From a virus: a DNA stretch of 60,069 bases. The position numbers and the translations under genes are program-made. The stretch spans positions 1 to 60,069 of the IMG/VR virus record IMGVR_UViG_3300017752_000010; one strand, written 5' to 3'. The notes beneath the pieces are model-generated. The model saw only the letters and a program-made list of their open reading frames with translations. It had not been told where the DNA came from and did not search any database. This document shows, one piece after another, positions 7,763-34,634 of the stretch (within the stretch, counting starts at the first letter, position 1; every line of letters begins with the position of its first letter).

Positions 7763-9904
7763 TTACTGTAGTAAGGAACCTGTAATTAGAACAGTGCCAT
7801 TTACATCTTCAATATTTAGAGTTTGCGAGTTAGTAAATGTAGCACCACCGACTGTTAATTCCAAAGATTGCGGAGAAAGTACTGATGTTGAAGATACTAG
7901 TCTCCATTCAGCATATCTGTACGCACCATCTGAATCAAGAGTATTATTTCCAACTTTTGCTGAGTGTTGAACAATATTTAAATTTGATCTTTCAGCAGAA
8001 CTCATACTTAAAGCTTTTGCTTGAGCAGTTGGATCATCAATAAGTGTAGCATCTAGATAGTAAAGCTCTGCAGCTTGCCTACCAGCAAATACTCTTCCTT
8101 TTTCTTGTTGTTTATTAGAAATTTCGATTACAATACCATGAAAATCTGCATCCGAATCAGAATCATGTGGTCTTGGAAGACCAATGTATCTATGTCTATT
8201 ATCGCCTTCAGCTAATGTTAGACCAGATCCATCTGAGTCACCAGTCGATTGAAGGTAAATTTGCATTCCAAAAAGGTCTGAATCGTGTTCAGAATCATAA
8301 CTAACTTTTACAGTATTAAATCCTGCATTACCTAAATCTCCGCCTACATGTGTTTCAGTACCAATAGTTACACCACCATTACCAATTAATCCTTCACTAT
8401 CAGAAATAACAGTTTGTAGCCAACCAAATTCAGTTTTGTTATGAAGAAGATTATAAATCTTCTCAGCAATGGTAGCGTTAGTATCACCAGCTACTAGATT
8501 TAACCTTGAGTCGGTGTCGTCTGAATCTCTATTTTTACCTGGTCCGTAAGGAACATTTAAAGTAAGATTTCCAGCAGGAATTGCAGATGGATCAGCAACT
8601 CCACCACGTCCATACATATTCACTGTAATGATATGTGTTTCTGAATCAACAGCATCAAATCTTGGATTTTTGTTAAATCTATCATCAACCCAAAGAGAAC
8701 CATTATCTACATCAAAACTAGGTGGTGTATTACCAACAACAGCAACGGCGTTCAAAGCAATAATTTCTTCTTCACCAGTAAAATCAGCTGGTCTTAATTT
8801 AAATTTATTAACAAAAGATTGATTGAATTGTTCTTGCGAAACTCCACCAATTAAACCAGTCATATTTTTTAGAACTACTGATTTTCTACCAAACAATAAA
8901 CTATTGCTTATTGAATCAATACCATTTGTTGTTGTATTTAAAGTTTCTCCGATGGATGCAACTCTTGGCGTTGTCTGATCTTCACCAACTGCAACAAATG
9001 TTATTTCAATTCTTGATGCTACACTTCCTTGATCTGAGTCTCTTGTAAAGAAGAAAGTATCGCTATCATTTGGAATAAATTTATACAAAGGTGTAATTGC
9101 TTGATCTACATAGCTTGTAAATGCGAAAGAAGCCTCGACTTCTAGAAGTTTATCACCACCATAAATATACACAATAGATTTATCTACAGAGTCAAGTTCA
9201 GCTTTTACTGTAGAGTCAAGAGATGAAAGCGCAGAATTTGTATTGACAGCATCTCTAATAGCTTTTGCAATTCCTTCTTTTTCAAAATCAGAATCAGCGG
9301 AAATACTAAATTGAATATCGACTACACCACCACCGAATGCTCCACCACCTGCTGCATTCACAGGAGAAATATCTGCATCTACTGTACCATCACTATCATG
9401 TAGAACTCGTTTAGATCTATTAGAGATTGCTAAAGAGGCATACGCATCTGAGTCAAGATTGCGGTGACGGGCTGCAATAGGTGAACTGCTTGGATAGGTA
9501 AAAGCAGCATTAGTAAGCGGTCTTTCGCCTGCATCAGAATCAAGTAAATAACTTTGACGAATTCTAAGTGAGATATTGTTACCAGCTTCGTCTGAATCTA
9601 AAAGTCTGCGAGCAATAACTCTAATCTGTGCACCATTTTGAAACTGCTGACCTGAGATTGAAGAACCTACTAGTCTATTTGCAGGAACATCTCCTGTTTT
9701 AGTAACAATCAATACATCAGAAGTACCATCCGAATCTCTTGTAACAGAAGGTCGTTTAGTATACAACTTTCTGTTAGACAAGTTAATCGCAATTTCGCCT
9801 TCTTCGATCTGATCAGTTTGAGGCTGACCTTCAGCATTTAAACCACTTGATTGAGATCTTCTATGTTGGTATACCGGTCTACCGTTACTAAAATTAATTG
9901 CCAT
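7763..9904 (-). CDS. Large DSD-rich appendage protein (713 aa)
   Basis: The 713-aa protein begins MAINFSNG with a YQHRR patch, then a predicted beta-rich body. By eye about sixteen DSD or DSE tripeptides are spread through it, including RDSDG, LLDSDE, HDSDSDAD and GDSDGSG contexts, usually next to Gly, Asn or Thr as in surface loops. An EGEIAINLSNRKLY segment near residue 37 resembles N-terminal attachment motifs of phage tail-fibre-like proteins. It is probably a fibre or baseplate appendage. The exact T4 counterpart is not recognisable. Confidence 0.65.
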   Translation of the reverse strand: MAINFSNGRPVYQHRRSQSSGLNAEGQPQTDQIEEGEIAINLSNRKLYTKRPSVTRDSDGTSDVLIVTKTGDVPANRLVGSSISGQQFQNGAQIRVIARRLLDSDEAGNNISLRIRQSYLLDSDAGERPLTNAAFTYPSSSPIAARHRNLDSDAYASLAISNRSKRVLHDSDGTVDADISPVNAAGGGAFGGGVVDIQFSISADSDFEKEGIAKAIRDAVNTNSALSSLDSTVKAELDSVDKSIVYIYGGDKLLEVEASFAFTSYVDQAITPLYKFIPNDSDTFFFTRDSDQGSVASRIEITFVAVGEDQTTPRVASIGETLNTTTNGIDSISNSLLFGRKSVVLKNMTGLIGGVSQEQFNQSFVNKFKLRPADFTGEEEIIALNAVAVVGNTPPSFDVDNGSLWVDDRFNKNPRFDAVDSETHIITVNMYGRGGVADPSAIPAGNLTLNVPYGPGKNRDSDDTDSRLNLVAGDTNATIAEKIYNLLHNKTEFGWLQTVISDSEGLIGNGGVTIGTETHVGGDLGNAGFNTVKVSYDSEHDSDLFGMQIYLQSTGDSDGSGLTLAEGDNRHRYIGLPRPHDSDSDADFHGIVIEISNKQQEKGRVFAGRQAAELYYLDATLIDDPTAQAKALSMSSAERSNLNIVQHSAKVGNNTLDSDGAYRYAEWRLVSSTSVLSPQSLELTVGGATFTNSQTLNIEDVNGTVLITGSLLQ

Positions 9905-9908
9905 TGTT

Positions 9909-11273
9909 TTATCCTAAGTATTGAATGACTGCTGAGCCAATAAATGGTTTTTCAGAGAAAATCAGAATATTGCCACTATCATCTACTATATTTGTTACTG
10001 TAATTTCTTTATACATATCATCTACATCTGCAAAACCAGTGTAACCATCACCGCTATAACCAGCTGTATTCGATCCGGCTGCAGCACCTTGGCTGCCCCA
10101 AACTGTTTTAAATCTAACTGCTTTTGCAGTTTCTGAATCAGATTCGTTATCAATTGCATTGTACAATTGAGTTCTAATTACATCAAGGAATTCTGTAGTT
10201 ACTGCAGCTGTATTATCTGTTTGATAAGATCTTTTGTAAATTTTAAAATTCATTAATTTGGTTACTGATTCAAAATCTCTTTGGCTACCAGATGTACCTT
10301 TTGTAATAGGTAATACATAATACCCATTAGCAACTTCAGTAGAACCATCAACTGTAAGTGCTGAAGAAAGCTGATGCCACTGTTCTGAATCCCATGAGTC
10401 TTGATAAGTTGTTGTTACAGTCGAAGACGATAATCTTACATCAGATGTGTTAAACACCCAACCAATATCGTGACCGCAGTAAACAAATTCGTATATGGTA
10501 CTGTTTGTTCTTAGTTTTACTGGAGAAGAAGCATATCCTCCTGATACAATAGTTCCACCAAAGTTAATGTTATAATCTAAGAAGCCTTCAGAGTCTACAA
10601 CTTTTTTAGCAGAGCAATTTTGGAAAGAACCATTATAGTCTCTTATTTTTGTATGATTAGAATTAGGATATGTTAGACCATTTCCTGATGTGGCTTGAGA
10701 CCATTCAACTCTTTGATCGCTATCTGCAAATTTATAAGGCGATGTCCAAACATTTATTTCTTTACCATTTGATATCGATTCGCGAGATTCACGAATCCTA
10801 ATAACATCACCAATTTCTGCAAGTGGGAGAACAAGATTAACTCTTCTTACGCTCTCAACACCACTTAGATCAACATCAATTTGTTCACCTCTAGAAAGAA
10901 AATACATTTCAGAATCTAAATAGAGATCTGGAATTCCATCACCATCAGAATCAGCAAAGATCTTAAAACCAGTTTCAGAATCAAAGAATCTAGTGCCAGC
11001 ACCCTGATTATCTGAATCTATACCAGTTGTTCTAAATCCAACTCTTTGAAACTTTCCAGTTCCATGAAGTTCACCTACTCTATATTCGAATTCACCGAAG
11101 TTTCTACGATATCCGTAATAAGGTTGTGTGTTATCTGTACCAACTGGATTATCACCAAAGTTTTGATATACATCAGCAATAAGGTCATTTATCTTTGCAC
11201 CACCTTTACGAGCTGAATCACCAGTGCCAGAGTCTGGCGAAAGGCCGAGGTTAATTAAATCACGAGTTCCCAT
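9909..11273 (-). CDS. DSD-rich appendage protein with calcium-loop motif (454 aa)
   Basis: The N-terminus has the pattern LGLSPDSGTGDSARKGG followed by KINDLIADVYQNFG, which matches a motif (GDxxR-K-N-NF) recurring in T4-like phage structural proteins and also present in the 280-aa protein at 13194. Residues 108-122 contain DSDGDGIPD followed by LYLDSE, a near-ideal thrombospondin-type-3/EF-like calcium loop. Several other DSD/DSE tripeptides occur. Likely a trimeric or multimeric fibre/appendage component between gp15 and the 713-aa protein. Confidence 0.65.
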   Translation of the reverse strand: MGTRDLINLGLSPDSGTGDSARKGGAKINDLIADVYQNFGDNPVGTDNTQPYYGYRRNFGEFEYRVGELHGTGKFQRVGFRTTGIDSDNQGAGTRFFDSETGFKIFADSDGDGIPDLYLDSEMYFLSRGEQIDVDLSGVESVRRVNLVLPLAEIGDVIRIRESRESISNGKEINVWTSPYKFADSDQRVEWSQATSGNGLTYPNSNHTKIRDYNGSFQNCSAKKVVDSEGFLDYNINFGGTIVSGGYASSPVKLRTNSTIYEFVYCGHDIGWVFNTSDVRLSSSTVTTTYQDSWDSEQWHQLSSALTVDGSTEVANGYYVLPITKGTSGSQRDFESVTKLMNFKIYKRSYQTDNTAAVTTEFLDVIRTQLYNAIDNESDSETAKAVRFKTVWGSQGAAAGSNTAGYSGDGYTGFADVDDMYKEITVTNIVDDSGNILIFSEKPFIGSAVIQYLG

Positions 11274-11277
11274 AGTT

Positions 11278-11290: not shown

Positions 11291-12145
11291 CTATAAATTA
11301 ATATCTCTAATAATCTTAACAATATTTCCATCAGAATCGCTAAGGTTAATAACTCTAGGACTATACTGACTATCTGAATCAAGGATAGCTGATGCATCTT
11401 CTGTAAAAGCAAAACCAACTTCACTTCCTATAAGATCACTATCACCTCTTCGCAAAGCATATAAGTTTTGTCTATCAGAATCTGTAGATCCTGGTGTGGC
11501 AATTGCTGCTCTTGAATCGAAAATTACTGTAGTGTTTGCAACTGGACCAGAAATAAAGACTTTACTATCAAATTCAAGTTGCCATTCAATTGTTCTTCTA
11601 CCTGCAATCTCTCCAACCCAGTCATCTGTCCAAGTAGCTGCTGTAAGAGTAATCGGCATATCAAAATCATTTGTAGGTACCGGTGTATCTGAATCAGCAT
11701 CAGCTGGAAAATGTCTAACTTTTACGGTATACGCTGGCTGAAAGAAAGGTAAAATCTGTTCTATAATCTGCCATCCATCATTTAAGTTTTTTGTTTCAAT
11801 GTATAAAGAGAATGAAAGATTATATGGAACAGGAGTCTTGATGTTTTGTCTTCTGCCTTTAGAATCTGGTGTGCGAATAAAATCTTGCTTACTAGTAAGT
11901 TTTCTATTTACATCATAGTTCATTGCAACTAGTTCATAAGACATTCTTGGAAGAAGTTTTTCAAACATCTCTTCTTCAGGTTTAAATTGTTTTTGAGCTT
12001 CAAGCCATTTTGCTCTTGGTCCATACGCAATAGGAACAGGAACTAATTTCCCATCTCTTCTTTTCAAAACAATATTATTAAAGAGACTACCAAAGACTGC
12101 AGTTGCGTTCTTAATAGTTTCGTGATAAAAGTGACGACCAATCAT
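11291..12145 (-). CDS. 15: Tail sheath stabiliser and completion protein gp15-like
   Basis: The 284-aa protein matches T4 gp15 as I know it (272 aa): an N-terminal HFYHETIKNATAVFG, then LFNNIVLKRR, PIAYGPRAKW, LPRMSYELVAMNYD and the strongly conserved IIEQILPFFQPAY, followed by a RRTIEWQLEF strand. gp15 caps the contracted-tail sheath and joins the tail to the neck. It follows the gp14-like gene, as in T4. Several DSD tripeptides lie in regions with no counterpart in T4, for instance ADADSDTP and the C-terminal third. Confidence 0.88.
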   Translation of the reverse strand: MIGRHFYHETIKNATAVFGSLFNNIVLKRRDGKLVPVPIAYGPRAKWLEAQKQFKPEEEMFEKLLPRMSYELVAMNYDVNRKLTSKQDFIRTPDSKGRRQNIKTPVPYNLSFSLYIETKNLNDGWQIIEQILPFFQPAYTVKVRHFPADADSDTPVPTNDFDMPITLTAATWTDDWVGEIAGRRTIEWQLEFDSKVFISGPVANTTVIFDSRAAIATPGSTDSDRQNLYALRRGDSDLIGSEVGFAFTEDASAILDSDSQYSPRVINLSDSDGNIVKIIRDINL

Positions 12146-13194
12146 TAAATATCATCCAAATTTCTAATTCCAGGCACTTTGTGTGCTCTTGCTGTATAGT
12201 CATCAGTTAGATTTTTAGGTCTTTCGACAACATTACCTTCATAATCAGTTACTTCTTGTTCTTCAGCTTGTTGTTCAATTACTGTGTTATCAGCCCAAGA
12301 ATCAAGTATCGCATCACTATCTGTAATATCTATTGCTTTTGTTTCAGAATCAGTAAATGAAATACCTGCTTTGGCTTTTGAAACAATTTCATCAGTTGAT
12401 GTAAGTTCATTTCCAACATTATCGTAAGAAACTGCAGTTGGGTTAAACTCAAGATCTTCACCAGAAAGTTCGAACAGTTTACAGTGTAATTTATACTGAT
12501 AGTTATCGCCTAACTGATAAAATGCCCCATCATGGAAAGTAGTAACACGTAAAATCTCAAACACTTTAGGTACATACTGTTTTTTATTTTGTGCTGATCT
12601 ACCAAATGGTATTACAATTAAATCACCTTCAAGTGGTCTTGAACGAGCATATTTAGAAAGCAAAACTTCGTAACTATCAGAATCAGCAGATCTTTGTTCC
12701 AATGTAACTCTGTAATCAGAATCTATGTTTTCAAAATTATTGATTGCAACGTTCATAATAACTTCTTCACGGAATTCAATACCGTACTGAGTCATTACAT
12801 CGCCTTCACCTTCAAATCCAGCAGCGGCAGCAAGTAACATATCACATTGAAAACCTTGATCAAAAACAGATTCAGGTCTTTCGTTCCAAATATCATCAGT
12901 ATAATCAGATGCTCTTGGCATATACCTTACAGTAATACCATTAACATTAATAGATTCTCTAATGAGGTTTTGAACTAATCTTTGTTCATTAGTTGAAAAT
13001 CTGGCTGAATTACCAAATTGATTAATGTAACCATCAATATATGTATTTTTAATTCCAGCAGAAAGAGCATAGTCTCTATTTACTTTTTGAATAGATCTAT
13101 TTAAGTTTTCGCCAAATTCAGAGTCATTGTCGCTATCGCCATCAAAGCCGCTAGATGCAATAGTAAATCCTGAATAATTGTTTGTTATAGTCAT
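12145..13194 (-). CDS. 14: Neck protein gp14-like
   Basis: The 349-aa protein is longer than T4 gp14 (256 aa) but shares its landmarks: ESINVNGITVRYMPR, a YGIEFREEVIM segment, EGDLIVIPFGRS, VFEILRVTTFHDGAFYQLG, and KLFELSGEDLEFNP. gp14 with gp13 forms the collar that closes the filled head and binds the tail. The extra length comes from an N-terminal DSDNDSE-bearing extension, an internal ADSDSYEV insertion and a longer acidic C-terminus. It abuts gp15 at its 3' end and the 280-aa protein at its 5' end. Confidence 0.85.
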   Translation of the reverse strand: MTITNNYSGFTIASSGFDGDSDNDSEFGENLNRSIQKVNRDYALSAGIKNTYIDGYINQFGNSARFSTNEQRLVQNLIRESINVNGITVRYMPRASDYTDDIWNERPESVFDQGFQCDMLLAAAAGFEGEGDVMTQYGIEFREEVIMNVAINNFENIDSDYRVTLEQRSADSDSYEVLLSKYARSRPLEGDLIVIPFGRSAQNKKQYVPKVFEILRVTTFHDGAFYQLGDNYQYKLHCKLFELSGEDLEFNPTAVSYDNVGNELTSTDEIVSKAKAGISFTDSETKAIDITDSDAILDSWADNTVIEQQAEEQEVTDYEGNVVERPKNLTDDYTARAHKVPGIRNLDDI

Positions 13195-14036
13195 TAACCA
13201 TAATACCCGGCGTCGTACCCTACTCTTACAAGTCTTGCCATAATTTCTGCAAATGCATCTTCTATATTATCAGCATCAATTCTAAAAGAAGAAGCTGTAT
13301 CACCTTCAATGGCGTTAAAATCACTATATAGTAATCTTTGATTTGCAGCAGACAATTTAGATGATTGAGTTCCAGCTTGTAATCTTGCTAATGCTCCATC
13401 AAAGTCAAGTCTAAGATTTTGTGGAGAAAATTCATTTTGAACTTTCAATAAACCATCAGAGCCAACTCTTAAATAGGCAGGAGCAGAAATACCATATTCA
13501 CCGTTTCTAACATTAATAGTATTAATATCAATACGACCAGATGGATTTGATCTAGAGAATTTATCTCTAAAGCTTTGTCTACTTTGGCTTGGAATATTTG
13601 TTGATAGAATTACAACATCACCTTCACTTAGATTTTTAAATGCATCAGAATCAAGACCGCCAGATATACCTCTTTTTGTAAAAGTTGTATCGCTATCCCA
13701 TTGAATTTGATCAGAAGATTTAACACCAAGAATTCTAAAATCACTATCGCCTGTAGGTCTTTCAAGTCTCTGCAAACGTCTGTTTTTATCGGAGTCTGTG
13801 GCATAAACTGCTTCCATAAAATTACCAACTTTAATAAAAGCGGTACGAAGCGGATCTCCAGTGTTTGAGTTTGGAGAATTACCGATATTAATCCTTACGT
13901 TATTTTTTACTCTACGGTCTGCAGCATTAAACGAAACTTCAGTTCCACCGTCATTTAATACAGGAGCTGTACCAACTTCGTCTACACCATCACCATAGTT
14001 TGGTTTTAAAATATCACTTAGATTACGATTTGTCAT
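13194..14036 (-). CDS. Structural protein of the neck/appendage module (280 aa)
   Basis: The 280-aa protein contains IGNSPNSNTGDPLRTAF followed by KVGNFMEAVYAT at about residues 51-80, a motif typical of T4-like virion appendage proteins. The C-terminal IEDAFAEIMARLVRVGYDAGYYG is compact and aromatic. By position just before gp14 it would correspond to gp13, but I see no convincing gp13 similarity. Four or so DSD tripeptides occur. Called structural by motif and context. Confidence 0.6.
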   Translation of the reverse strand: MTNRNLSDILKPNYGDGVDEVGTAPVLNDGGTEVSFNAADRRVKNNVRINIGNSPNSNTGDPLRTAFIKVGNFMEAVYATDSDKNRRLQRLERPTGDSDFRILGVKSSDQIQWDSDTTFTKRGISGGLDSDAFKNLSEGDVVILSTNIPSQSRQSFRDKFSRSNPSGRIDINTINVRNGEYGISAPAYLRVGSDGLLKVQNEFSPQNLRLDFDGALARLQAGTQSSKLSAANQRLLYSDFNAIEGDTASSFRIDADNIEDAFAEIMARLVRVGYDAGYYG

Positions 14037-14226
14037 TTGTAATTCCTAATAGGAGACTTTCAATTCTTTGAAGAGCATCTTGAACTTCTTCTTGTTTTTC
14101 TTCTAGTCTCAAAAGCCTTTCTTCTTTTTGTTTTTCTTGCAGCTTTTTATTTTTTGCTGCTGTATAATCTGCTCTATTAACATTTAATATAGCACCGCTT
14201 TTTTCATTACGAATATAGTTTCTCAT
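14023..14226 (-). CDS. Small coiled-coil protein (67 aa)
   Basis: The protein begins MRNYIRNEKSGAILN and then forms a charged, heptad-like helix rich in Glu, Lys and Gln (EEKQEEVQDALQRIESLLL). The start ATG overlaps the stop of the 2063-aa gene (TAATG) and the end overlaps the next ATG, so it is translated within the structural operon. It may be a small assembly or baseplate-associated helix; no specific function is known to me. Confidence 0.65.
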   Translation of the reverse strand: MRNYIRNEKSGAILNVNRADYTAAKNKKLQEKQKEERLLRLEEKQEEVQDALQRIESLLLGITNDKS

Positions 14227-17200
14227 TATATTACCGCAATAATTCTCAGATCTTTAATTGCAGGTATAAAAGATTCGTTTTGCACTTTAAAGATGATCTT
14301 AATTTTAAAGGCTTCAAACTCTTCAGCAACTTCTTCGATAAGAGAGTACTCTACAAAATCAGAAGAAGATGGGAAACTATCAAAGTTTGTTTCATTTACG
14401 GCTTGATTTCGCGGAAATGTCTGCCAATCAAAATCTTCGAATGGCGTATTATCACCAACTGGTCTGGCTTTATATTGAACAATTAGTTCACTACCAGGTT
14501 CCATATCAGCATCAAAGAGTACTTTTAGCTGATTTGCTGGTACTTCAAGTTCAACTTCATTAGTGATATATTGAGCAAACTCTTTATTATTCTGCACAGC
14601 AGCAATGTAAGAAATAAACTCATTGTGAACGTTTTCACTATCAGCAACTGTAACTTGAGTTGTTGTAAAGCCAGTTTCTAATTCTGAATCAGTAATAAAG
14701 TCTCCAACTACATATTTTTCAGTAAACATGGTTGACATAGCATCTACTCTAACAATTGGTGAAAGATACTCATTAGTATTAGTAAAGGTCAGTTTGTTTT
14801 CAAAATCAGATGTATTGGTTTTGTTCAAAGTGTTTTGAACTATCTGAGGGAAGTTAAAATCTACGAATTCATCAACATCAGCTTCAGCAAAATCTGTTTT
14901 AATATTTGGATTTTGATAATAGATAGAGTTCGTGTTATAACCATACTTGTTAGAAGCTGGTCTCACATCTACAATAGAACCACTTGTTGTTTTAATTTCT
15001 GAAGTAGCATTAGTTCCATCAAAAAGAACAGGTGAAATGTTAGTTTTCACTCTATCAAACTGAATATTAGAAGTAGCTACTGTATTAGTACCACCACCTT
15101 TACCAGCTTTAACACCTTTTCTCCAAGATACATAACTTTGTTCTGAATCAGCTTCACTCAAATCGATAAAGTATGAATCTTTAGTAGCATATTTCACATT
15201 GTGAGTTTTACCAGAAGCTGTACTTGTAAGATTTGATATTCCATCTACATTGTTAATCAAAGTAACTGGTATACCGTTTAAGTTTGACGCAGAATTAAAT
15301 CTAGCGTCTTCTGAATCATTAGATGATGGGAAAAGATTATTTCCTTGAGCACCTAGAATTCTTACTTGGTGTGTATCATTAGGACCATACATACCATGGT
15401 TTTCGTGATATACTTTTACAAAGTGAGAATTTTCAAATGTTTCTAGTGCAAGACCATCATAAGTTTGACCAATTGGATTTGCATAGAAGTTATTTGTATC
15501 TTTAAACGTAATACTAGCATCTTCAGTACCAAAGTTTGCTCTATATACTTTAAACTTCATATCTCTATTTTGATCTGCAGTCCATGTCGAATTGTTTTGC
15601 GACTTAAAGAAAGAACCATAATAACCACCAACGTTTGGTTGTTGATCAATTTTACCGCCAGTGATTACATCATTTTGACCTTGTACAGCTGTCCATGCAG
15701 TTGTTTTATCAGAAGGAGTAAGTAGAACAATACAATATTCTTTGTATGCTTCAATGTAGCATGGAGCATCAAATCTAAAGTTAGTTTCAACTGTTGGTGT
15801 AGTTAAGTTTTCATTTGATTTAGACACTGTAACTCGAGAATTAGCAATAATTTCTGGTCCAGGATAGCCATTAATCATGTTTCTAATTTGACACTGTACT
15901 TGATTTTGAAGATCTCTTGTATCCACAAATCCAAGCCATACATCAACTGAAGTAATGAATGAGCCAGTTCTTCTTGGAGCATCTATGTTTGGATCAAAGT
16001 TATTTGGATTAGAACCAGCATCTAAAGGAAGAGTGAATGCTTGTGCAATCGGATCTTCATACTTAGCAGTAGTGCTTTCTACTCTGGAAACATTAGTTGA
16101 ATTTCTAGCAATTGTAACATTGTTTCGAATAGTTTGTGCTCTAACTGATACCATTTCACCTACATCGAAATATCCTCTTGATGTGAATGAGCCGGCTGCA
16201 AAAGTTGTATTTGCTCCATCTAAATCAGTAATAATAAATCTTTTCACACCAGTCTTAAATGTATTAGCTGGAATAGTAAATCTTCCACGAAGTTCACCAA
16301 TATTATCTGAAGTCAAAGATCCAAGAGCTCCATATTCTCTTGTAGTTGCTGTTGGATCAAAAGGAGTCTGCTGTACAAATCTAGTAACATCAACACCATC
16401 AAATTCTACTTTCAAGGGAACATTTGGTCTCATTCCTTGCACATCAAATTTTACAGTAATTGAACGCATGAAAGCATCATCAATTGCTCTTACTTCTTTT
16501 GTTCTAAACTCTGTTTTGATAGTTCTTTCATCAGCAAAGCTAGCTCTTGTAGTGTTAATCTTTTTACCAGCTCTAATTTTTTGAGTGATTTTAACACGTT
16601 GACGACTACCTTGAGAATTTGTAAATTTAACAACTCCAAATTTTCTTCTAACAGCAGCTCTTGAAATATCTTCGCGGGACCTAAACATATAAGATGTTGA
16701 AGTTTTTGTAGTTCCAGCCCACTGATAAGATGTAGATTCTTTAGCAGAACCAGCAACTTGAGTTGAAGTAGAGCGCAAATTGTTAAACACTGATTCTGGA
16801 ACAGATTCAATACCACCACCAAAGGATGTTCTATCAACTACGTGACCACTAACTACTCTACGACTATCATCTTTCCAATAATCTTGAGGAGGATCTAAAT
16901 TTAAATCGCCTGCATAAATCCATGTGTTATACGGATTAATTCGAATAGTTTCAGAAGCAAACGTTTGAGATAAGACTTCTTCTTGATCATATGATTTAAC
17001 AATATAACCAGGAGTTTGATTCAAGTAATACTCATCAATATTTGTACCATTATCTACTTTTTGAACATTAAAGAATGAATCTACTGAAAGAGGATATAAA
17101 GTTTTCTGTTGCGAATCAATAGATGCTCTAAAGTTTGGATCTCCAAAGTCTGATCTTGCGTTCTCATCAGAAAAATCATCAACAATAAATCCGGATTTTG

Positions 17201-20441: not shown

Positions 20442-20449
20442 TATTTATT
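20442..20449 (-). promoter_or_regulatory. T4-late-like promoter motif AATAAATA
   Basis: On the minus strand AATAAATA lies 25 bases upstream of the ATG of the 2063-aa gene and overlaps the stop codon of gp8. Spacing here is compatible with a normal late promoter and leader (AAGATGGATAAC before the ATG). Confidence 0.4.
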
Positions 20450-25445: not shown

Positions 25446-27287
25446 TTATTTAGCTCTACTTACGTTATATGTTGCCAAGGCTTCTTTATCATCTTGGCTA
25501 ATTGCTCTTGCTGTAGAATCACCAATAGACATTTGAAGTAAATAGTTATCTTTTGCTTCTACATCAAAAGACTCTGGAATTACTATAATACCAATTTTAC
25601 CATCTTGCGGGTCAAAGTCACTGATTTCAACTTCACCAGTAGTGTAGTTAATAGATCCTGCACTTGAATTTACTACAATTTTATCACCTTCAACTATATC
25701 AACTAAAAGCAAAGTACCTCTACCATCATCTAATAATTGAGATTGATTAGCTCTACCCTGTCTCTTAAATAAAGTGCTTGCAAGTACTGCACCTTGAGAA
25801 GCTTCTCCAGCATAAGTTACTTCGTGTAATCTATTACCAAAAGAAAATTCTGGAACATCTAAAATTCCATCTTTAGCAACTACATCAAATCTTAAATTAA
25901 TTCTTGGGTTTGCTGAAGTGATAGCAGTGTCAAGATTTAAAATTTCAGTAGTTAGTTTGGAAACTTGAAAACTTTTTAAGAAATCGCCGATGTAAGTAGT
26001 ATTCAATGTGTTATAAAGTGCGTTAACTTGAGCTACTAAATTTTCAGGTGTGCCATTCAAATTAGATGGATCATATTGAATTACAGTTTTAGCAATAACC
26101 TTAATAATATTTGGATCAACAATTTCAGGTCTAACTGTAACGAGATTAAACTTAGATAAAATATCTCGGGTAATGGTCAACTTTGCTTGTTCTGTTAGTT
26201 TATCTGCATTTTTAGGTTTAATTGAAAAGAAAACCTTGCCTGGTTTTCCAACTTTTTCTCCACCATAAACACTGATTGTCTGAATATCTGAATAGTTTTG
26301 TTTTAAAATAGTTTCATAATCTTTTTCTGTAACAGCTCTAAACTGCGATTGAAACCAATTTGGAGCGTTATCTTTAATTTCTCTAATAGATTCAGGTTCA
26401 GATCCACCTTCAGCAATGGTTGAAGAAGCAATAGTGAAATCACCAGTAGTAGGTGCGACACCGTTTGCGGCTGAACCACTTGTTACAAGATACGAAACCA
26501 AAATCTCTTCACCAACTTGTAGTTTCTTACCAATAACGCCATTACCAAATCTCAGTCTGTAGTTTCCATCACTAACTTCTTCTAAAAAGTAGATAGTACT
26601 CTCATCGTTTATCGATGTGATGCCTTGTTCTGATGGGCTTACTTGTGTATACTTTACAGCGTTTGAATAAGTACTAGCAGATCCACTCGTAAAAGTGTCT
26701 TCTTGAGGATTTACAAGAACAGTAAGTGTGCTAGTATCTACATTTGCATTATTGATTTCAAATACAGGAAATTCTTCTCTAACATTATCTACAATAAATC
26801 TCTGAGTAATTGGCGTGCCTTCATAAACTGAAACTTTAATAGTCTTTTCAGTTCCTACTGGATCAGTATCATCAAACTGAAGAGTGTTACTATCTAAAGG
26901 AAAGAATCTAAATGTTGTAGTTCCAGAAGATGCCGTAAATGTAGAATATGCTGGAATCGTAACAAAGTTAGAAGAAGCTTTTTGAACTGACAAACTAAGA
27001 GTAGAAGTAGCAGAAGTTGCACTGCGTGGTGTGTAGTTCAGCATTCTTGCAATTGATACTACATTTTTTCGAAGCAATGCGCTATCAAGGAACATCTCAT
27101 TTACCAAGAAATTTGCTGTAAGATTATTATAGTGGGTGTTGTAAGCAAGAACATCCATCAACAAATTTAAACTTGATCCAGTGAATTCATAATCTTGGAA
27201 TTCTGGTCTATTTTTAAAATATCTTACTAGATCAGATTTAATATCATCAAAATCTAGGTTTGCGATTACAGGTCTGTTATCAGCCAT
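25446..27287 (-). CDS. 6: Baseplate wedge protein gp6-like (baseplate J family)
   Basis: The 613-aa protein matches T4 gp6 (660 aa): NLDFDDIKSDLVRYFKNRPEF, then YNTHYNNLTANFLVNEMFLD and a NYTPRSA segment at the N-terminus, the middle YFLEEVSDGNYRLRFGNGVIG (baseplate J-like core), and FRAVTEKDYETILKQ. gp6 dimers form the iris-like ring of the inner baseplate. No DSD or DSE tripeptide is present, in sharp contrast with the gp7-like protein next to it. Gene order gp25-gp6-gp7-gp8 follows the T4 order. Confidence 0.9.
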   Translation of the reverse strand: MADNRPVIANLDFDDIKSDLVRYFKNRPEFQDYEFTGSSLNLLMDVLAYNTHYNNLTANFLVNEMFLDSALLRKNVVSIARMLNYTPRSATSATSTLSLSVQKASSNFVTIPAYSTFTASSGTTTFRFFPLDSNTLQFDDTDPVGTEKTIKVSVYEGTPITQRFIVDNVREEFPVFEINNANVDTSTLTVLVNPQEDTFTSGSASTYSNAVKYTQVSPSEQGITSINDESTIYFLEEVSDGNYRLRFGNGVIGKKLQVGEEILVSYLVTSGSAANGVAPTTGDFTIASSTIAEGGSEPESIREIKDNAPNWFQSQFRAVTEKDYETILKQNYSDIQTISVYGGEKVGKPGKVFFSIKPKNADKLTEQAKLTITRDILSKFNLVTVRPEIVDPNIIKVIAKTVIQYDPSNLNGTPENLVAQVNALYNTLNTTYIGDFLKSFQVSKLTTEILNLDTAITSANPRINLRFDVVAKDGILDVPEFSFGNRLHEVTYAGEASQGAVLASTLFKRQGRANQSQLLDDGRGTLLLVDIVEGDKIVVNSSAGSINYTTGEVEISDFDPQDGKIGIIVIPESFDVEAKDNYLLQMSIGDSTARAISQDDKEALATYNVSRAK

Positions 27288-27728: not shown

Positions 27729-28265
27729 TTAGGGATGATAGAAAATATGCCTATCAATTACTACTTTCTTTTTAAATTGAAAGGACCATGTGGGTGTTAC
27801 ATAATCTGCATGATAAAAAAGAGCACCATCAGTCATATCAATTATTGAATCTGATTTTGCAACAATTTGTTTTGATAGCTCGTAAATTTCCCAAAAAACT
27901 TTTTTAGATTTGATTACGTCAGGTTGACCATCGCAGTACCAACTAAATTGGCAACGATTTTTGTATGCATATAATTTTCCTGTCAACTTACTTTCGTAAT
28001 GAGGTCCTTCATATACTACTTCACAAATAGTATCAGGAAAATCTTTTGACTTTAACCTATTCATTGTAACGTTACCAACCGCTACTTTGCCTGCAGTTGA
28101 TTCATTTCTTGATTCCATATAAATGTTTTGAGCCATACAAAACGTTTGCGGATCAAGATTTAAAGTAATTTCTAACTTTTCTTCTGCAGTTTCAGTTTTG
28201 TGTGGAACTTCATTCATCCCTGAGAGAGAAATGACAGTTGCGAGCATGCTATCTAATAATTTCAT
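27729..28265 (-). CDS. SleB-type cell wall hydrolase
   Basis: The 178-aa protein carries the hydrolase_2/SleB domain: NIYMESRNES with the putative catalytic Glu at 51, GKVAVGNVTMNRL, then CQFSWYCDG, and the C-terminal GALFYHADYVTPTW. These enzymes cleave the glycan strand of peptidoglycan. A short hydrophobic N-terminus (MLATVISLSG) might be a weak export signal. It lies between the baseplate operon and the fibre operon, so it could act in lysis or as a virion-associated hydrolase. Confidence 0.85.
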   Translation of the reverse strand: MKLLDSMLATVISLSGMNEVPHKTETAEEKLEITLNLDPQTFCMAQNIYMESRNESTAGKVAVGNVTMNRLKSKDFPDTICEVVYEGPHYESKLTGKLYAYKNRCQFSWYCDGQPDVIKSKKVFWEIYELSKQIVAKSDSIIDMTDGALFYHADYVTPTWSFQFKKKVVIDRHIFYHP

Positions 28266-28310: not shown

Positions 28311-28333
28311 ATCAGTATACACAAAGGTAATTG

Positions 28334-30283
28334 ATGGCTATTAACGACTCAGATATTGGCAATTTTGAAATTGATGCCAATGGCATACGTACTTCACGTG
28401 CACGTATCAAGAAACTCTTAGACAGAAGAAACTATACTGGTCAATCTGACAAAAGAATAGCTTCTGATGCCAAACTCTACTCTTATTATCTACAGCGCAA
28501 TGTTGATAGTGATAAAGCAGAAGTTCAATACAATTACTTTGATTCAGAAAAATATGGTGCTCCAGCTGCATGGAATAGAAACAACCTAAATGTAGGTTGG
28601 ACTTCTTCTGACAGTGAAGGTACCTGGACAAGATTAAGAGAATTTTTAGGAACACAAAATAATTCCGCATATGTTGCTGGTGATTCTTTTGCTGGTGCTC
28701 CTTATGTAATTGCTACAATCGATTCGGATAATACTGTTCGTCACACAGCTTTTCAATTACTTCTAAAAGCTCACCTTACAGATTGGCTTAAATTTGATAC
28801 TGCTGAAAGTAGATCTATAGTAAAAGCTATCAATGCGATGTCTGATGATAGTGAAGGTAGAAAGAAACTAGTAAAAGCCGTAGCAAAAGGTCTAGACTCA
28901 GATTTTGCAGCTAACAACGATATCTTCTCAAGACTTATTGACTCAGTTTCTACAGATACAAATACTAGTATTTTTAATTACTTCAATTCTTATGGTTTGA
29001 TTCCAAATGACTCTGATGACGATTTGCTGACTGGACCAAGTGATGGTCGAGGAATTAAATGGAATAATAGAAGAAGACTAGGTGCTGCTGTAATCGATGC
29101 TATTCAATATGATAGCGAGTATAGAGGTGGCTTTAGTTACAATTTTGGTAATAACACTCTTGTTACGAAATTAGCTGGTTTATTAAATGAAGCATCTGCT
29201 GCAAATGGTATTTTGCAATTCCAAACTTACAATTCTGCTATACCAAGGTATTTAAGATTTGATTGGATTGAGCGTGATTCTGATGGAAGTGGAAACCTTA
29301 CAGCTTCTGATAGCGAAGGTTACTCTTTAGATTATAGAACTCATGTAAATCACGGTTTTGGTGATGCGAAAAACATTAAAGATTCAGATTATATTTCTCT
29401 ATTGACATTTAGAAATGAACAATTCTTTAACCTAATTGCTGCGCACGTTAGTGCTGTTGATTCTGAAAAAATGGACCTTCTTACTGGTTCTGCATTTAGA
29501 GGTCAACGTGATCCTTTAGGTAAAGGTCAAACAAATTACTTTAATTATCATCCTGGTTTTAAGGAAAGATTTAAGTCAATCAATAAACGTTTCTTTGAAC
29601 AAACTCTAATTGAAGCGTATTTATCTAGAGGTACTTCTGAAACTGATAGTGATAGATTACTGCATCGTAGTAAACTTTGGAATACTATGTATCGCTATCT
29701 TGAAAATGTAGATTCAGATGCTCTAGCTTTAACTAGCTTAATTCTAACACGTATCGAAGATGATTCTGATAGTACAAAACGTGTAACTAATTTAGTTCTA
29801 AACTCTATTGATAGCGATTCAGATAATCAGCACACAATAGCTAAAATGGTTCTTGAAGCTTTTGATTTTGATTCAGACTTGCAAAATACAGTAACACGAG
29901 ATGTTGTAGATACAATTAAAGCAGATTCTGATATTAGAGAAGATTTAAAAACATCTTTGAATACTAATCGCAATACAATTACTCATGAACATATTGTTAA
30001 TGATTCAGAAGCTTCTTATGCATCTTTCACCTTTATTGTTCCAGATGGATTTAATCTACCAAATTCAAATATCAACGTGAAGGTTTACATTAACGGCGTA
30101 AAAATGTCGCAGAATCTTTCATACAATAAAGCGGGTACAGCTGTTGTAAATCACTCAACAGATGTTTCATCAGTGATAGTATCTTCTGATGATTCAAACC
30201 CTTTCATAACAGTTAATTTTAGTTCCAATTTACAAATTGGTGAACTTTTAACTGTTGAATACATAACAACATCTGACAGTTAG
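28334..30283 (+). CDS. DSD-rich fibre/adhesin protein (about 649 aa)
   Basis: I place the start at ATG 28334, six bases after AAAGG; a TTG at 28331 is also open. The protein contains about twenty DSD/DSE tripeptides, roughly one per 30 residues and often in short helical-looking segments such as NSIDSDSDNQH. The C-terminal 90 residues form a beta domain with KVYINGVKM, like the repeated FINGxx units in the next gene. The first gene of a six-gene operon, it is likely a long tail fibre subunit. No similarity to a named T4 protein is evident. Confidence 0.7.
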   Translation: MAINDSDIGNFEIDANGIRTSRARIKKLLDRRNYTGQSDKRIASDAKLYSYYLQRNVDSDKAEVQYNYFDSEKYGAPAAWNRNNLNVGWTSSDSEGTWTRLREFLGTQNNSAYVAGDSFAGAPYVIATIDSDNTVRHTAFQLLLKAHLTDWLKFDTAESRSIVKAINAMSDDSEGRKKLVKAVAKGLDSDFAANNDIFSRLIDSVSTDTNTSIFNYFNSYGLIPNDSDDDLLTGPSDGRGIKWNNRRRLGAAVIDAIQYDSEYRGGFSYNFGNNTLVTKLAGLLNEASAANGILQFQTYNSAIPRYLRFDWIERDSDGSGNLTASDSEGYSLDYRTHVNHGFGDAKNIKDSDYISLLTFRNEQFFNLIAAHVSAVDSEKMDLLTGSAFRGQRDPLGKGQTNYFNYHPGFKERFKSINKRFFEQTLIEAYLSRGTSETDSDRLLHRSKLWNTMYRYLENVDSDALALTSLILTRIEDDSDSTKRVTNLVLNSIDSDSDNQHTIAKMVLEAFDFDSDLQNTVTRDVVDTIKADSDIREDLKTSLNTNRNTITHEHIVNDSEASYASFTFIVPDGFNLPNSNINVKVYINGVKMSQNLSYNKAGTAVVNHSTDVSSVIVSSDDSNPFITVNFSSNLQIGELLTVEYITTSDS

Positions 30284-30295: not shown

Positions 30296-32431
30296 ATGTC
30301 TAAGTCGCGCGATATATCAAAACTAAATAGAGGTTTTACCATTGACGGTACTGACCAATCAAGAATTGACTCTGATTTTGTATTATCAGTTTTTAAGAAA
30401 ATTGTCGTAAAAAGAGATGATGCAAATTATGCTGGTGGTAAAGACTCAGAAGTATTTGTTGTAGATGTAGATACTGCTAACCCTGTAGTTCGTATACGTC
30501 ACGATCTTGATTTAAAAGGTAGTCTGAAACTAAATTCTACTCAAAAAGATTCTGATAGAGAGCGTGCATATAATACTTCAAAAGATTATGAAATTCGTAC
30601 TGGTAAGCACTTTGATAGTGACTTTGCTAATCTAGTTATCGATACGCTTATTGGACATGGTAAAGAAGGTGTAGACTACACATCTAATAGATACAATCCT
30701 ATTACTAGGCGTCTCTTAAATGAATTCGCAATTGCTCATATGCATGACGTCAACAATGATAAAGCTCCAGTTGTTGGTCAATATCTTAGATGGAATGGTG
30801 ATGCTTGGGAATCACAAGATCCTGCAGCTGAGGGATCTTTCACTGTTGACTTTCAAGAAGCTGTAATTGCTGCTGCAGCAATTACCGATGGTCAAGATAC
30901 GACCATTGGCTTTTCAAAAGAAATTTCAAACGCGAATGCAATCGTGTTTATCAATGGTGTAGGACCTTTAGTTGACAGTGAATCTTATGGTGATGCTCCA
31001 ACTAACACACAAGATTCTGATAGCGACAAATATTTATCAGTTGAATATACAATTTTGCAAAATGTAACTACTCAAGACGTAGATCAAATTGTTTCTGGTC
31101 CGTCTGACGCTATTACGTTTTATCAAGATGTTAGCACTTTACGTCATGGTGATGAAGTTATTGTGATATCCCCAATTGATGAAACTATTGCTCACTTCTA
31201 TAAAAACTTTAAATTTGCTGATGATGACTTTAAAGTAATGAGACAAGCACGAAATTATTGGGATAGCGATGCTGGAACTTGGTTAGATACTGTTGGTCCA
31301 GCAGCGAAGCACACTCATCAAACATTTAGAATGATCGACTCAGATATCTATGATGATTCTGAAATGGTTATTGCTCGTGTTGGTGGTAGTCCTCTGATTT
31401 TCTTAAATGGTATAAATCTAAATCAAAGAAATGGTGATTTTTACTATTACGATTCTGATTCTGATCAAATTGCCAAGTATTCTGCATCTAGAATGATTGC
31501 ATTTGATTCTGATAATTTTGTATTAGATTCTGATGTTTTAACAGCTCTTTGGGTTAGAAACGTTGGTAATCTTGCATCGCAAAACTTTGAGACTGTAGAA
31601 CATACATTTAGAGTAGATTCTGATAATCATCCTGGTATTACAACGGGTGTCGTAAGAATTGCTGAAATTACCCAAAACTCAAACGATGCTTTGAACAGCT
31701 TGGTGTTTATTAATGGTAGAATTCAGACTAATGTTCCAGTGCTAACATATCAAATTAGAAATGATGATATTGTGTTTCCTGGTAAACTTGATAGCGATGA
31801 CTTTGTATCAATATACTCATTCAGCGGTCCAACTGCTGGTGCTGGAACGATTGGTGGCTTATCAAATGTCGATAGACAAGTAGATTCTGCATTAACTACA
31901 AATGTTGGTGAAGCTCTGGTATTTGATGGCTCTCAATGGACCCATCAGTTCTCTAACACAATTGCTGAATCACCTCAAACAGCTGCTTGGTTGAGAGTTA
32001 CATTTGACTCAGATACTGGTCCAAATCCTAACAAGATTATTGAACGTGCTACTTATGGTTTTGACAGTGATCAGCTGAAATATTCAAGACATGCTGAAGG
32101 CATTTATTACTTCTTGCTTGATTCAGATGTAGTTCCAGTTACGCAAAGTAGTGGAGCATTTATGTCTTTGTCTGTTTCAGTTTGTGCACCACAAGGACAA
32201 CCAATCTTTGCATCGGTTGATGCTCAATCAAACGCTAGTGAGTTATATAGTGCACCTGGTCCAGCACCTGATAGTGATACAGGATTAACAATAGATGTAT
32301 TTGGTGGACAACCACTAATTGCAAATCCAAACGGCAGAGCTATTCGAGTAAGAACATGGGATGCTAACTCTAACCCAATCGACCCAATTCAAGTTAATGT
32401 ACAGTTATGGTTAAAACGTGAAGTTGGCTAA
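30296..32431 (+). CDS. DSD-rich fibre protein with FING repeats (711 aa)
   Basis: The 711-aa protein has at least three copies of a beta unit containing a strand with VFINGVG, LIFLNGINL or LVFINGRIQ, a structure common in phage fibre shafts. About eighteen DSD/DSE tripeptides are distributed between these units. The N-terminal 200 residues include HDLDLKGSLKL and an AIAHMHDVNND segment; a QYLRWNGDAWESQDP motif near residue 160 resembles fibre domains of cyanophages. The C-terminus has a compact beta domain ending LWLKREVG. A role as a fibre or adhesin is likely. Confidence 0.72.
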   Translation: MSKSRDISKLNRGFTIDGTDQSRIDSDFVLSVFKKIVVKRDDANYAGGKDSEVFVVDVDTANPVVRIRHDLDLKGSLKLNSTQKDSDRERAYNTSKDYEIRTGKHFDSDFANLVIDTLIGHGKEGVDYTSNRYNPITRRLLNEFAIAHMHDVNNDKAPVVGQYLRWNGDAWESQDPAAEGSFTVDFQEAVIAAAAITDGQDTTIGFSKEISNANAIVFINGVGPLVDSESYGDAPTNTQDSDSDKYLSVEYTILQNVTTQDVDQIVSGPSDAITFYQDVSTLRHGDEVIVISPIDETIAHFYKNFKFADDDFKVMRQARNYWDSDAGTWLDTVGPAAKHTHQTFRMIDSDIYDDSEMVIARVGGSPLIFLNGINLNQRNGDFYYYDSDSDQIAKYSASRMIAFDSDNFVLDSDVLTALWVRNVGNLASQNFETVEHTFRVDSDNHPGITTGVVRIAEITQNSNDALNSLVFINGRIQTNVPVLTYQIRNDDIVFPGKLDSDDFVSIYSFSGPTAGAGTIGGLSNVDRQVDSALTTNVGEALVFDGSQWTHQFSNTIAESPQTAAWLRVTFDSDTGPNPNKIIERATYGFDSDQLKYSRHAEGIYYFLLDSDVVPVTQSSGAFMSLSVSVCAPQGQPIFASVDAQSNASELYSAPGPAPDSDTGLTIDVFGGQPLIANPNGRAIRVRTWDANSNPIDPIQVNVQLWLKREVG

Positions 32432-32437
32432 TAAATA
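32430..32437 (+). promoter_or_regulatory. T4-late-like promoter motif AATAAATA
   Basis: AATAAATA overlaps the stop codon of the 711-aa gene and is followed by AGGAG at 32443-32447 and the ATG at 32456, a normal promoter-leader order. Confidence 0.4.
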
Positions 32438-32455
32438 TATTCAGGAGAATATGAA

Positions 32456-32899
32456 ATGAAATCGAAGACAAGAAGACTTGCCGAACTAGGCAGTAGAATT
32501 CAGCAAGACAGATATGGTAATATTACTAGTATCAAATCTAAAGGATTAACTACAGAAACTGCTGATTTTACGAGTAGTTTAAATGGAGTCGATGGAACAT
32601 TTTCTGGAAATGTAGATGTACAAGGTTCTTTTGGTAGTGTCCAAGATTTAACTGGCACGGGTTCAGTAGTAGCTCAGAGCTTTGTAACAACTGTAATCCA
32701 CAATGGTACAGGAACAATCACTGTTCCAACTGATGGATTTGCAAAAGGATCACAAATTAGTATCGTTACTAATGGAACTATTAACAATATCGATTGGGGT
32801 GATAGCTCTAAAGGTATTTCATTAGGTGGAGCCACAAAGATGGCTTCTGGAACTTTTGATGGTGTTAAATGGTTCTATTCAGAAGCTGCGACGAACTAA
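32456..32899 (+). CDS. Small fibre-associated protein (147 aa)
   Basis: The 147-aa protein begins with a basic helix (MKSKTRRLAELGSRIQQD) then Gly/Thr/Ser-rich beta repeats (LNGVDGTFSGNVDVQGSF). It has no DSD tripeptide. The C-terminal GVKWFYSEAATN resembles a common ending of phage fibre distal domains. It follows the 711-aa fibre gene with an AGGAG ribosome site nine bases before its ATG. Probable fibre connector or tip. Confidence 0.65.
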   Translation: MKSKTRRLAELGSRIQQDRYGNITSIKSKGLTTETADFTSSLNGVDGTFSGNVDVQGSFGSVQDLTGTGSVVAQSFVTTVIHNGTGTITVPTDGFAKGSQISIVTNGTINNIDWGDSSKGISLGGATKMASGTFDGVKWFYSEAATN

Positions 32900-32903
32900 T
32901 GAT

Positions 32904-33299
32904 ATGCATGTACATAACACACTCTACATCAAACTCGATTCAGACTACGTAAATCACAAACTCACATTTGCTGATAGCGAAAGTGTTACATCAATTGTTG
33001 TTGAAGTTCCTGAAGGAATTAATATTACAAGCACTTTTGGTAATTATGCTCTTGATATTCCTAAACTTCCTAATATAGCTTTTATCAAGATTATAGTTGA
33101 TGGAACTATTATTGGTGAAGGCGGAAATAATTGGGGTGGTGGAATCATAAACAGAAATCCTACGTGTTATGCTCTTTGCACTTCAAACACAGGACAAGGC
33201 ATTGTAAGAGGTGGCGGTGGCACTAGTGGATATATTAGATATGCATTAGCTGGAAAATTCAACGCTTTGAAAAACCCTCCACGCCTTTTTAACTTCTAA
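32904..33299 (+). CDS. Glycine-rich fibre tip-like protein (131 aa)
   Basis: I start this at ATG 32904 (MHVHNTLYIKLDSD), because the longer upstream extension overlaps the previous gene in a shadow frame. It contains two early DSD/DSE tripeptides, a beta domain, then Gly-rich loops NNWGGGI and VRGGGGTSGY, as seen at receptor-binding tips of T-even phages (gp38-like adhesins) and in fibre tips of marine phages. It ends in a TAATG overlap with the next gene. The receptor role is inferred from composition. Confidence 0.6.
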   Translation: MHVHNTLYIKLDSDYVNHKLTFADSESVTSIVVEVPEGINITSTFGNYALDIPKLPNIAFIKIIVDGTIIGEGGNNWGGGIINRNPTCYALCTSNTGQGIVRGGGGTSGYIRYALAGKFNALKNPPRLFNF

Positions 33300-34042
33300 T
33301 GGCATTACGCACCCCACCTCAAAGATCTATTGGCAAGACTTACGCTCGTAAAGCTTCAAAAATGATTAGAACATTTTTCATTACAAATGATAGTGATTCT
33401 ATTGTAATGAAATTTGATCATGAGACCCATCCTTTTTCTACAAAGTTACATAAACTACAAGTTGATTCAGGTGGAGCATTTACATCTTCTGTACCTACCA
33501 CATTTAATGGTACTGTTAATTTTAACTTTGATCAGAATAATATTTTTGATGTTGAATATCCAACGGTAAAAATTGGTGCTGATAATGGATCATCTACAAA
33601 ATTTAATTTTGGATCATCTGTATCAGAAGATTCAGATACCACTATGATTATAGATGGCACTACTGATATTCATGGTGCTGTCTATTTTAGACCTCTTTCA
33701 GAAGTTTTTATTTCAGCTGACTCTTTAAATACGCCTTTTAATAATGAAGTTGCCTTTAACGCTGCAATTTCTATCGACTCTGATTTAAGTGGTGGAAGTG
33801 TATTTGATAGTGAAATTACAGGTACTACGCTGAATGTAATTAATTTAAGAGGCGGAGATGCTGAAGGAGATAATGAGCATTTCGGAGATTCTACTTCCGG
33901 GCATGGTCTCTTTTTAGGAAGTCAAGAAATTGTTTTTAACGCTGCAAAGAATCTTACAATTTGCGGTGTAACTGGAACATATGATTCAGATATTTTGTTA
34001 CCAAATGGTTTGGCAACTCAGTTCTTCGATATAAGGAATTAA
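33299..34042 (+). CDS. DSD-bearing fibre protein (247 aa)
   Basis: The 247-aa protein has a basic N-terminus (LRTPPQRSIGKTYARKASK) followed by a beta-rich body with DSDS, EDSDTT, IDSDLSG, FDSE and YDSD motifs, about one per 40-50 residues. The start is coupled to the previous stop by TAATG. Its composition resembles a short shaft or collar segment of the fibre. No named homologue is evident. Confidence 0.6.
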   Translation: MALRTPPQRSIGKTYARKASKMIRTFFITNDSDSIVMKFDHETHPFSTKLHKLQVDSGGAFTSSVPTTFNGTVNFNFDQNNIFDVEYPTVKIGADNGSSTKFNFGSSVSEDSDTTMIIDGTTDIHGAVYFRPLSEVFISADSLNTPFNNEVAFNAAISIDSDLSGGSVFDSEITGTTLNVINLRGGDAEGDNEHFGDSTSGHGLFLGSQEIVFNAAKNLTICGVTGTYDSDILLPNGLATQFFDIRN

Positions 34043-34049
34043 ATAGAGT

Positions 34050-34634
34050 ATGGCACGTCAAAAATCAAAAGCCCGTCTTCACGCAGATTTGGTTCATCAG
34101 ATCAAAACTAATGAAGATGGTGAAATTGTAGAACTAAATCTAAACGAAGCTATTAATTTCAAAAGTGTTGAAATTGATGGTGATCATCCTGATGATTTTT
34201 TTATTGTAAATTCAGCCGCAACATTCAATAATGATATTACTTTTTCTAGTTCAACAGGAACTTTAACGATTGATGCTGGAGTAGTTAACTTTGGTGTTGA
34301 CTCAGATGTTGCTGAAACTTTAACATTTGGTTATGATTCTGATGATAAGTGGGAAGTATTTGGTACTCTTGATATCAAAGGTAGAGCTTACTTGCGCAAT
34401 GGTACTGTTTTTGATGGTCCAGTCACAGTAAATAGTACAACATCGTTTGGTAGAAGAATTAGTGGTACTGCTGCAACATTTTCTGGAGCTTTAACTGCTG
34501 GAACTGTAACAGCTACGACAGCAAATGTTACAAATCTTAACTTTGGTTCGAGTACCTATACAGGCACTAATAATTTTGTAATTCAAAACTTATCTGGCAC
34601 TGAAGTCTTCAGTGCTCATGGATTCACTACTTAA
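34050..34634 (+). CDS. Terminal fibre operon protein (194 aa)
   Basis: The 194-aa protein begins MARQKSKARLHADLVHQIK, a basic helix, then TNEDGEIVELNLNEAINF and beta repeats rich in Thr and Ser with two DSD tripeptides. The N-terminus is similar in style to the 147-aa protein two genes upstream, suggesting paralogous attachment modules. It ends eight bases inside the convergent small gene at 34627. Likely a fibre shaft or tip component. Confidence 0.62.
   Translation: MARQKSKARLHADLVHQIKTNEDGEIVELNLNEAINFKSVEIDGDHPDDFFIVNSAATFNNDITFSSSTGTLTIDAGVVNFGVDSDVAETLTFGYDSDDKWEVFGTLDIKGRAYLRNGTVFDGPVTVNSTTSFGRRISGTAATFSGALTAGTVTATTANVTNLNFGSSTYTGTNNFVIQNLSGTEVFSAHGFTT
34597..34615. repeat. Perfect inverted repeat near convergent gene ends
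   Basis: GCACTGAAG and CTTCAGTGC flank one T, a 9-bp palindrome inside the last codons of the fibre operon. It lies just before the meeting point of plus and minus gene blocks. There is no T-tract, so a classic intrinsic terminator is not supported. Confidence 0.45.

Follow-up and report, generated by a model that had tools for sequence, protein, structure and literature searches.

Why should a short acidic tripeptide, Asp-Ser-Asp or Asp-Ser-Glu (DSD or DSE, together DS[D/E]), recur so densely in the appendage proteins of one phage? The question is raised by IMG/VR record IMGVR_UViG_3300017752_000010, positions 1 to 60,069, hereafter the window (60,069 bases, 34.6% GC). Judged by its T4-like structural homologues (gp6/gp25/gp8/gp14/gp15/gp18/gp20/gp23), the window belongs to the genome of a T4-like phage. 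The results described below make it very probable that D-S-[D/E] is a linear motif, and there is an even chance that it marks Ser-linked glycosylation or a similar modification. In the literature searched, an enrichment of Asp-Ser-Asp in phage virions is nowhere described.

The whole window encodes 143 DS[D/E] tripeptides vs. 16 expected from shuffling (1000 shuffles of each protein). Thirteen proteins located between positions 7763 and 34634 (7764 aa) contain 136 of them vs. 8.7 expected from the composition of each protein (Poisson P ~3e-109), i.e., 100 DSD (5.8 expected) and 36 DSE (2.9 expected); these are the two most enriched among all 8000 tripeptides. Per protein, the shuffle expectation is 0.02-1.9 sites and nearly all p values are 0.001-0.002, that of a 194-aa protein being 0.014. 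The enrichment first proposed by a sequence-only reading of this DNA is thus stronger than claimed. Its estimates of about 16 sites in a 713-aa protein, 25 in the gp7-like protein and 20 and 18 in two fibres are close to the 17, 26, 21 (650 aa) and 20 (711 aa) counted here; that of about 12 for gp8 was an overcount (9 found). It must be noticed that gp6, gp25 and the endolysin (27729-28265), all encoded inside the same interval, contain no site, and that gp6 has none in all 14 clade members. The proteins concerned are rich in Asp and Ser; composition or chance is nevertheless ruled out, for practical purposes, by the shuffles, the composition models and the background rate in homologues. Applied here, the refutation proposed by that reading leads to the same result: the enrichment survives correction for composition, and background rates are found only outside the clade described below.

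The tripeptides are encoded by 23 different codon triples, with 97 TCN and 46 AGY serine codons. Both classes of Ser codon being used, the unit is selected at the protein level, and a DNA-level repeat or DNA motif is ruled out. When the enriched proteins from seven genomes are pooled, DS[DE] occurs 639 times vs. 41 expected (15.6x). The neighbouring forms are at or below expectation: DT[DE] 21 vs. 34.8 (0.6x), ES[DE] 2 vs. 20.9 (0.1x), DS[NQ] 11 vs. 37.4 (0.3x), DN[DE] 27 vs. 33.7, DG[DE] 14 vs. 29.8 and DSS 14 vs. 31.3. In the 13 window proteins the flanks have no consensus and no fixed DxDxDG pattern; Asp is depleted at the positions immediately outside the motif. By these counts, D-S-[D/E] is a strict three-residue unit selected as protein. 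The rule differs from that of O-glycosylation in Bacteroidota, D-(S/T)-X, for which Thr or Ser is accepted and the third residue is small or hydrophobic: here DT[DE] is depleted as above, and DSA and DSG are at 0.53 and 0.41 of expectation in the clade.

Relatives were drawn from IMG/VR with alignments of gp6 and of gp7. As these are metagenomic records and for the most part incomplete, the absence of a gene is weak evidence; moreover, related sequences share ancestry, and counts across them are therefore not independent tests. The motif is enriched 7.7-19.3x over all open reading frames (ORFs) in 17 loci on 16 contigs, which form two subclades: (i) L002 (nearly identical to the window), L087-L092, L097, L098 and L108, with 43-60% identity to the window gp7-like protein; (ii) L007/L094, L008, L093, L095, L096 and L099, with ~30% identity. 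Eight motif-bearing loci (L206-L213, 9-16x) came from a separate search with the glycosyltransferase encoded nearby; three of these lie on contigs recovered before. In every clade locus of at least 10 kb DSD ranks first among tripeptides, except in L088 (DSE first, DSD second). About 145 other related loci are at 0-3.2x expectation. The GenBank relatives examined, HTVC008M, Melnitz, Mosig and Sf-FR1, are all motif-negative, with 18 DS[DE] vs. 25.1 expected in Mosig and 20 vs. 26.5 in HTVC008M, both complete pelagiphage genomes. The marine T4-like Kyanoviridae HTVC008M, Mosig and Melnitz have homologous gp6, gp7, gp8, gp14, gp15, gp18 and capsid proteins and, unlike the window clade, DS[DE] at or below background. 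Within this sampling the enrichment is restricted to one clade of uncultured, probably marine, T4-like phages, with a total of ~140-190 sites per virion spread over 15-18 proteins. Other viral contigs with DSDSD-coding DNA mostly have a single repeat protein; among the matches listed, 2 of 80 have two enriched ORFs. Analogous tripeptides of other cassette-bearing phages (GYT, TAR/RTI) are concentrated in one or two repeat proteins and not dispersed. In L270 and L273, GYTG collagen-like repeats occur only in one or two fibre-type proteins.

The location of the sites on the virion was described with G013, for which the head genes are included. Fifteen peripheral proteins (fibres, gp7-like, gp8, VrlC-like, gp13, gp14, gp15, gp18 sheath and others) contain 176 sites in 9260 aa, i.e., 19 per 1000 aa, vs. 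3 sites in 6226 aa (0.5 per 1000 aa) for 18 core, interior or non-virion proteins (gp2, gp3, gp4, gp5, gp6, gp17, gp19 tube, gp20 portal, gp21, gp22, gp23, gp25, gp26, gp27-like, gp32, gp48, gp53, gp54); the contrast is descriptive, since the classes were assigned from knowledge of T4 after the counts were seen. Of the three sites, gp5 and gp53 have one apiece; the third is in the major capsid protein, which is exposed and yet has no other. The five sheath sites (101, 107, 151, 184, 283) are all within residues 99-305 (binomial 0.005), between the stretches aligning with T4 gp18 (4-98 and 306-596), a region that we take, from gp18, to form the outward domains. The AlphaFold model of gp8 was unusable (pLDDT, i.e., predicted local distance difference test, 46) and its fold search meaningless, so that surface exposure rests on T4 homology and on loop-like residues in homologues. 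On this assignment the motif is frequent in the peripheral proteins of the virion and very rare in the core.

Site evolution was followed in ungapped comparisons. The window and G004 (53% identity) share DS[DE] in 190 of 253 site comparisons (75%; both directions counted); the value predicted by how well D, S and D/E are conserved in general in these proteins is 38.5 (15%). Partial matches number 39 vs. 193 expected. In subclade ii (G005-G001, 59% identity), the motif survives in 62 of 66, where 14.4 were expected. Across subclades (36% identity), 31-37 of 102-105 are kept vs. ~6, the remainder being mostly lost nearly whole, while the counts per protein remain high. Position 3 swaps D and E in 52 of the 190 kept sites of the window-G004 pair; D1 to E or S2 to T is found in no more than a handful. 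In these alignments, sites are kept or lost as a whole. Some gp8 sites are displaced by 2-3 residues; thus presence nearby counts more than exact position.

Such comparisons bear also on the spread of a short in-frame insert, a candidate of the sequence-only reading, or of a DNA-level element. The density of sites near alignment gaps is ~1.8x background (window vs. G004), as an insert would have it. However, of 208 site comparisons made with DSD-negative homologues, 136 place the motif opposite residues already present there, and 72 place it in inserts (52 expected). The homologue residues at aligned sites are turn-formers in 69% of cases vs. 41% for the background. The Ser codon class differs at 25-56% of conserved sites (window or cross-subclade comparisons), motif serines switching class at much the same rate as the remaining aligned serines. 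With the varied codon triples reported above, this leaves the insert as extremely improbable. Most sites, as far as these alignments tell, arose by substitution at loop-like positions rather than by insertion.

Among the candidates of that reading, sites for a modifying enzyme fit best: the tripeptide is strict and without flank consensus, its conservation is all-or-none and its bias is peripheral. The mechanism proposed here is that, in one clade, a D-S-[D/E] sequon is set into exposed, loop-like parts of the majority of the peripheral virion proteins; an enzyme would recognise the tripeptide and, prior to assembly or in its course, attach a covalent modification to its serine, O-glycosylation being the most likely one. 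The sugars would cover neck, sheath, baseplate and fibres, and might shield the particle or tune adsorption. That a hitherto undescribed sequon directs, through some novel enzyme system, the covalent decoration of the greater part of the virion exterior (neck, sheath, baseplate, fibres and one capsid-protein site) is given a little under an even chance. If true, it would be (i) a phage counterpart to the glycan sequons of eukaryotic viruses; (ii) a virion-wide surface code legible from sequence, with modified sites predictable and testable in uncultured phages; (iii) a function for the glycosyltransferase and oxygenase genes found near the tail genes of T4-like phages. Even with another chemistry, an all-or-none three-residue unit at 140-190 places per virion is unusual and directly testable.

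Viral N-X-S/T shields also consist of a short sequon scattered over exposed loops, with turnover of sites and density kept. The likeness to the clade lies in these three features; here the sequon is another one, the host is bacterial and there is no secretory pathway. The closest acceptor is that of the staphylococcal SD-repeat system (SdgB/SdgA on ClfA/Sdr; PMC8561734, PMC3794999), which shares the Asp-Ser-Asp unit on an exposed protein. SdgB adds N-acetylglucosamine (GlcNAc) to DSD and DSDSD peptides in vitro, DSD being the minimal acceptor (PMC8561734), and 100 DSD are present in the 13 window proteins. The serine is the modified residue there, as it would be here under the proposed mechanism. 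The staphylococcal acceptor is an uninterrupted, long SD repeat domain that belongs to a cell-wall adhesin; on the contrary, the phage motif is dispersed singly over many folded proteins, most gaps being of 10-60 aa, and DSE is used too. In what PMC12619734 reports of Freeman et al. 2023, mycobacteriophages likewise have phage-coded glycosyltransferases (here 3343-3996 and 5528-6193) and virion proteins as target, with glycans at the C-termini of capsid and tail tube. The motif of the clade is instead located on the majority of the peripheral proteins; the tube has none, the capsid protein one, and the modification is presumed.

The first candidate source of the enzyme would be the glycosyltransferase cassette adjoining the tail genes (3343-6193), with oxygenase-like and SDR genes alongside; a similar cassette is next to the tail genes in G006 (subclade ii). 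The model of the 5528-6193 product (pLDDT 87) matches, at the fold level only (TM ~0.5), GT-A enzymes, among them a PBCV-1 enzyme involved in capsid glycosylation. G004 contains genes for GDP-mannose dehydratase, DegT aminotransferase and UDP-glucose/GDP-mannose dehydrogenase. It also has a DNA alpha-glucosyltransferase gene (AGT, E 7e-29; L178, 5340-6665), which suggests glucosylated phage DNA in the clade; the sugar genes may thus serve DNA. As separate observations, the cassette, whole or in part, is found beside neck/baseplate genes in many T4-like phages (L210-L285 and the window), and its GT-A member (~50% identity) is more conserved than the adjacent gp14 and gp15 (27-40%).

Several results weigh against a serine-glycosylating system. 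The cassette or its 5528 glycosyltransferase adjoins neck/baseplate genes in many of 71 DSD-negative loci, and a related island is present in Mosig, also DSD-negative; since it stands beside tail genes in such phages, the cassette alone does not explain the motif. The 5528 glycosyltransferase is rejected as sole determinant: 71 of 80 carrier loci are without the motif, though most have virion genes (L214 has no DSD-bearing virion gene and is uninformative), so that it is neither specific nor a proof. No SdgB-like GT-B enzyme (DUF1975 insert) was found among the proteins scanned, many proteins being outside the scan, and no host among the GTDB genomes searched. The remaining phage proteins avoid the motif weakly and not uniformly (0.37 in G004 and 0.53 in the window vs. 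0.8-1.6 in subclade ii). That an enzyme reads the tripeptide, that it modifies the serine and that the modification is a sugar are three inferred steps.

Three other explanations accept the motif as a protein-level unit. Calcium or hydration sites had also been proposed; in such a non-enzymatic role, exposed D-S-D turns would coordinate calcium/magnesium or hold water, or contribute negative charge, and so stabilise the appendages or tune adhesion in sea water. The motif is indeed acidic, loop-located and peripheral, and ADSDGDGIPD in a 454-aa protein resembles a calcium loop. The Asp/Gly repeat pattern of DxDxDG loops is however absent, no flank is fixed and sites two-thirds kept are rare; the proposal accounts poorly for Ser rather than Thr, Asn or Gly and for a first Asp that is not Glu, and it is considered unlikely. 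Phosphorylation of the serine by an acidophilic kinase, from phage or host, is less probable still. Such kinases suit an acid-flanked serine, and a RIO/ABC1-like kinase gene lies beside the G006 cassette (PF01163, E 2e-6); no kinase-like gene was seen in the scanned parts of the window, and a required Asp before Ser is unlike the usual rule of CK2-like kinases. An equally low probability is given to non-covalent docking of a soluble decoration protein, chaperone or host ligand. The behaviour of a linear motif without flank rules and the tolerance of small positional shifts agree with docking, but three residues give little affinity, and 140-190 sites in 15-18 proteins are excessive for it.

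Features of the window: DS[D/E] sites, candidate modification cassette and supporting matches
Feature	Position	Strand	Sites or match
Asp/Asn beta-hydroxylase-like oxygenase beside cassette	1631..2425	+	PF05118 E 6e-10
Glycosyltransferase, candidate modification cassette	3343..3996	+	phrog_1962 E 4e-8
Methyltransferase-like, candidate cassette	4102..4782	+	by eye, no family match; kept beside glycosyltransferases in related phages
Glycosyltransferase-like, candidate cassette	4779..5552	+	DLD motif; 31% match to 3343 protein
GT-A glycosyltransferase, candidate cassette	5528..6193	+	best conserved cassette gene in both subclades, 49-65% identity in clade
713-aa virion protein	7763..9904	-	17 sites; homologues at 37-78% identity have 9-23
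gp9/10 N-terminal-like baseplate connector, 454 aa	9909..11273	-	8 sites; PF07880 E 6e-7
gp15 tail sheath stabiliser	11291..12145	-	5 sites; PF16724 E 5e-54
gp14 neck/head closure	12145..13194	-	6 sites; PF11649 and phrog_460
280-aa protein, short connector-like match	13194..14036	-	4 sites; subclade ii homologues 0
2063-aa VrlC-like protein, between gp8 and neck genes	14226..20417	-	11 sites, two clusters
gp8 baseplate wedge	20449..21849	-	9 sites; phrog_438 E 2e-38
gp7-like baseplate wedge	21853..25443	-	26 sites
gp6 baseplate wedge core, internal negative control	25446..27287	-	0 sites; phrog_219 E 1e-139
650-aa putative fibre	28331..30283	+	21 sites
711-aa putative fibre	30296..32431	+	20 sites
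157-aa fibre-region protein	32826..33299	+	2 sites
247-aa fibre-region protein	33299..34042	+	5 sites
194-aa fibre-region protein	34050..34634	+	2 sites; p 0.014 alone

Among GenBank phages, neither the 713-aa nor the 650-aa protein has a homologue. Near full-length clade copies of the gp7-like protein contain 19-36 sites each. The gp15 of L207 (560 aa, 12 sites) and that of G007 (330 aa, 7 sites) are longer than the usual 281-288 aa (3-5 sites), and their extra DS[DE] are located in segments without counterpart in the other clade members.

The genes found to be present in both subclades and absent from Mosig/HTVC008M include a ClpX homologue and an oxygenase (missing in G004); neither is convincing as the enzyme. 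The ClpX-like unfoldase gene (46668-47798; AAA_2 and ClpB_D2-small) has 54-59% identity in both motif-bearing subclades and ~42-46% to ClpX-type genes of GenBank phages. The G006 island by the tail genes (L189, 2884-19055) encodes three related oxygenase-like proteins, an Asp-hydroxylase, TauD, the RIO/ABC1-like kinase and several radical SAM-like enzymes in a row, of which one is Pfam-confirmed. A 374-aa protein (54577-55701), without Pfam match, has 46-60% identity in both subclades and distant relatives in Mosig and HTVC008M; it ends in a C-terminal proline run, LPPPPPIV.

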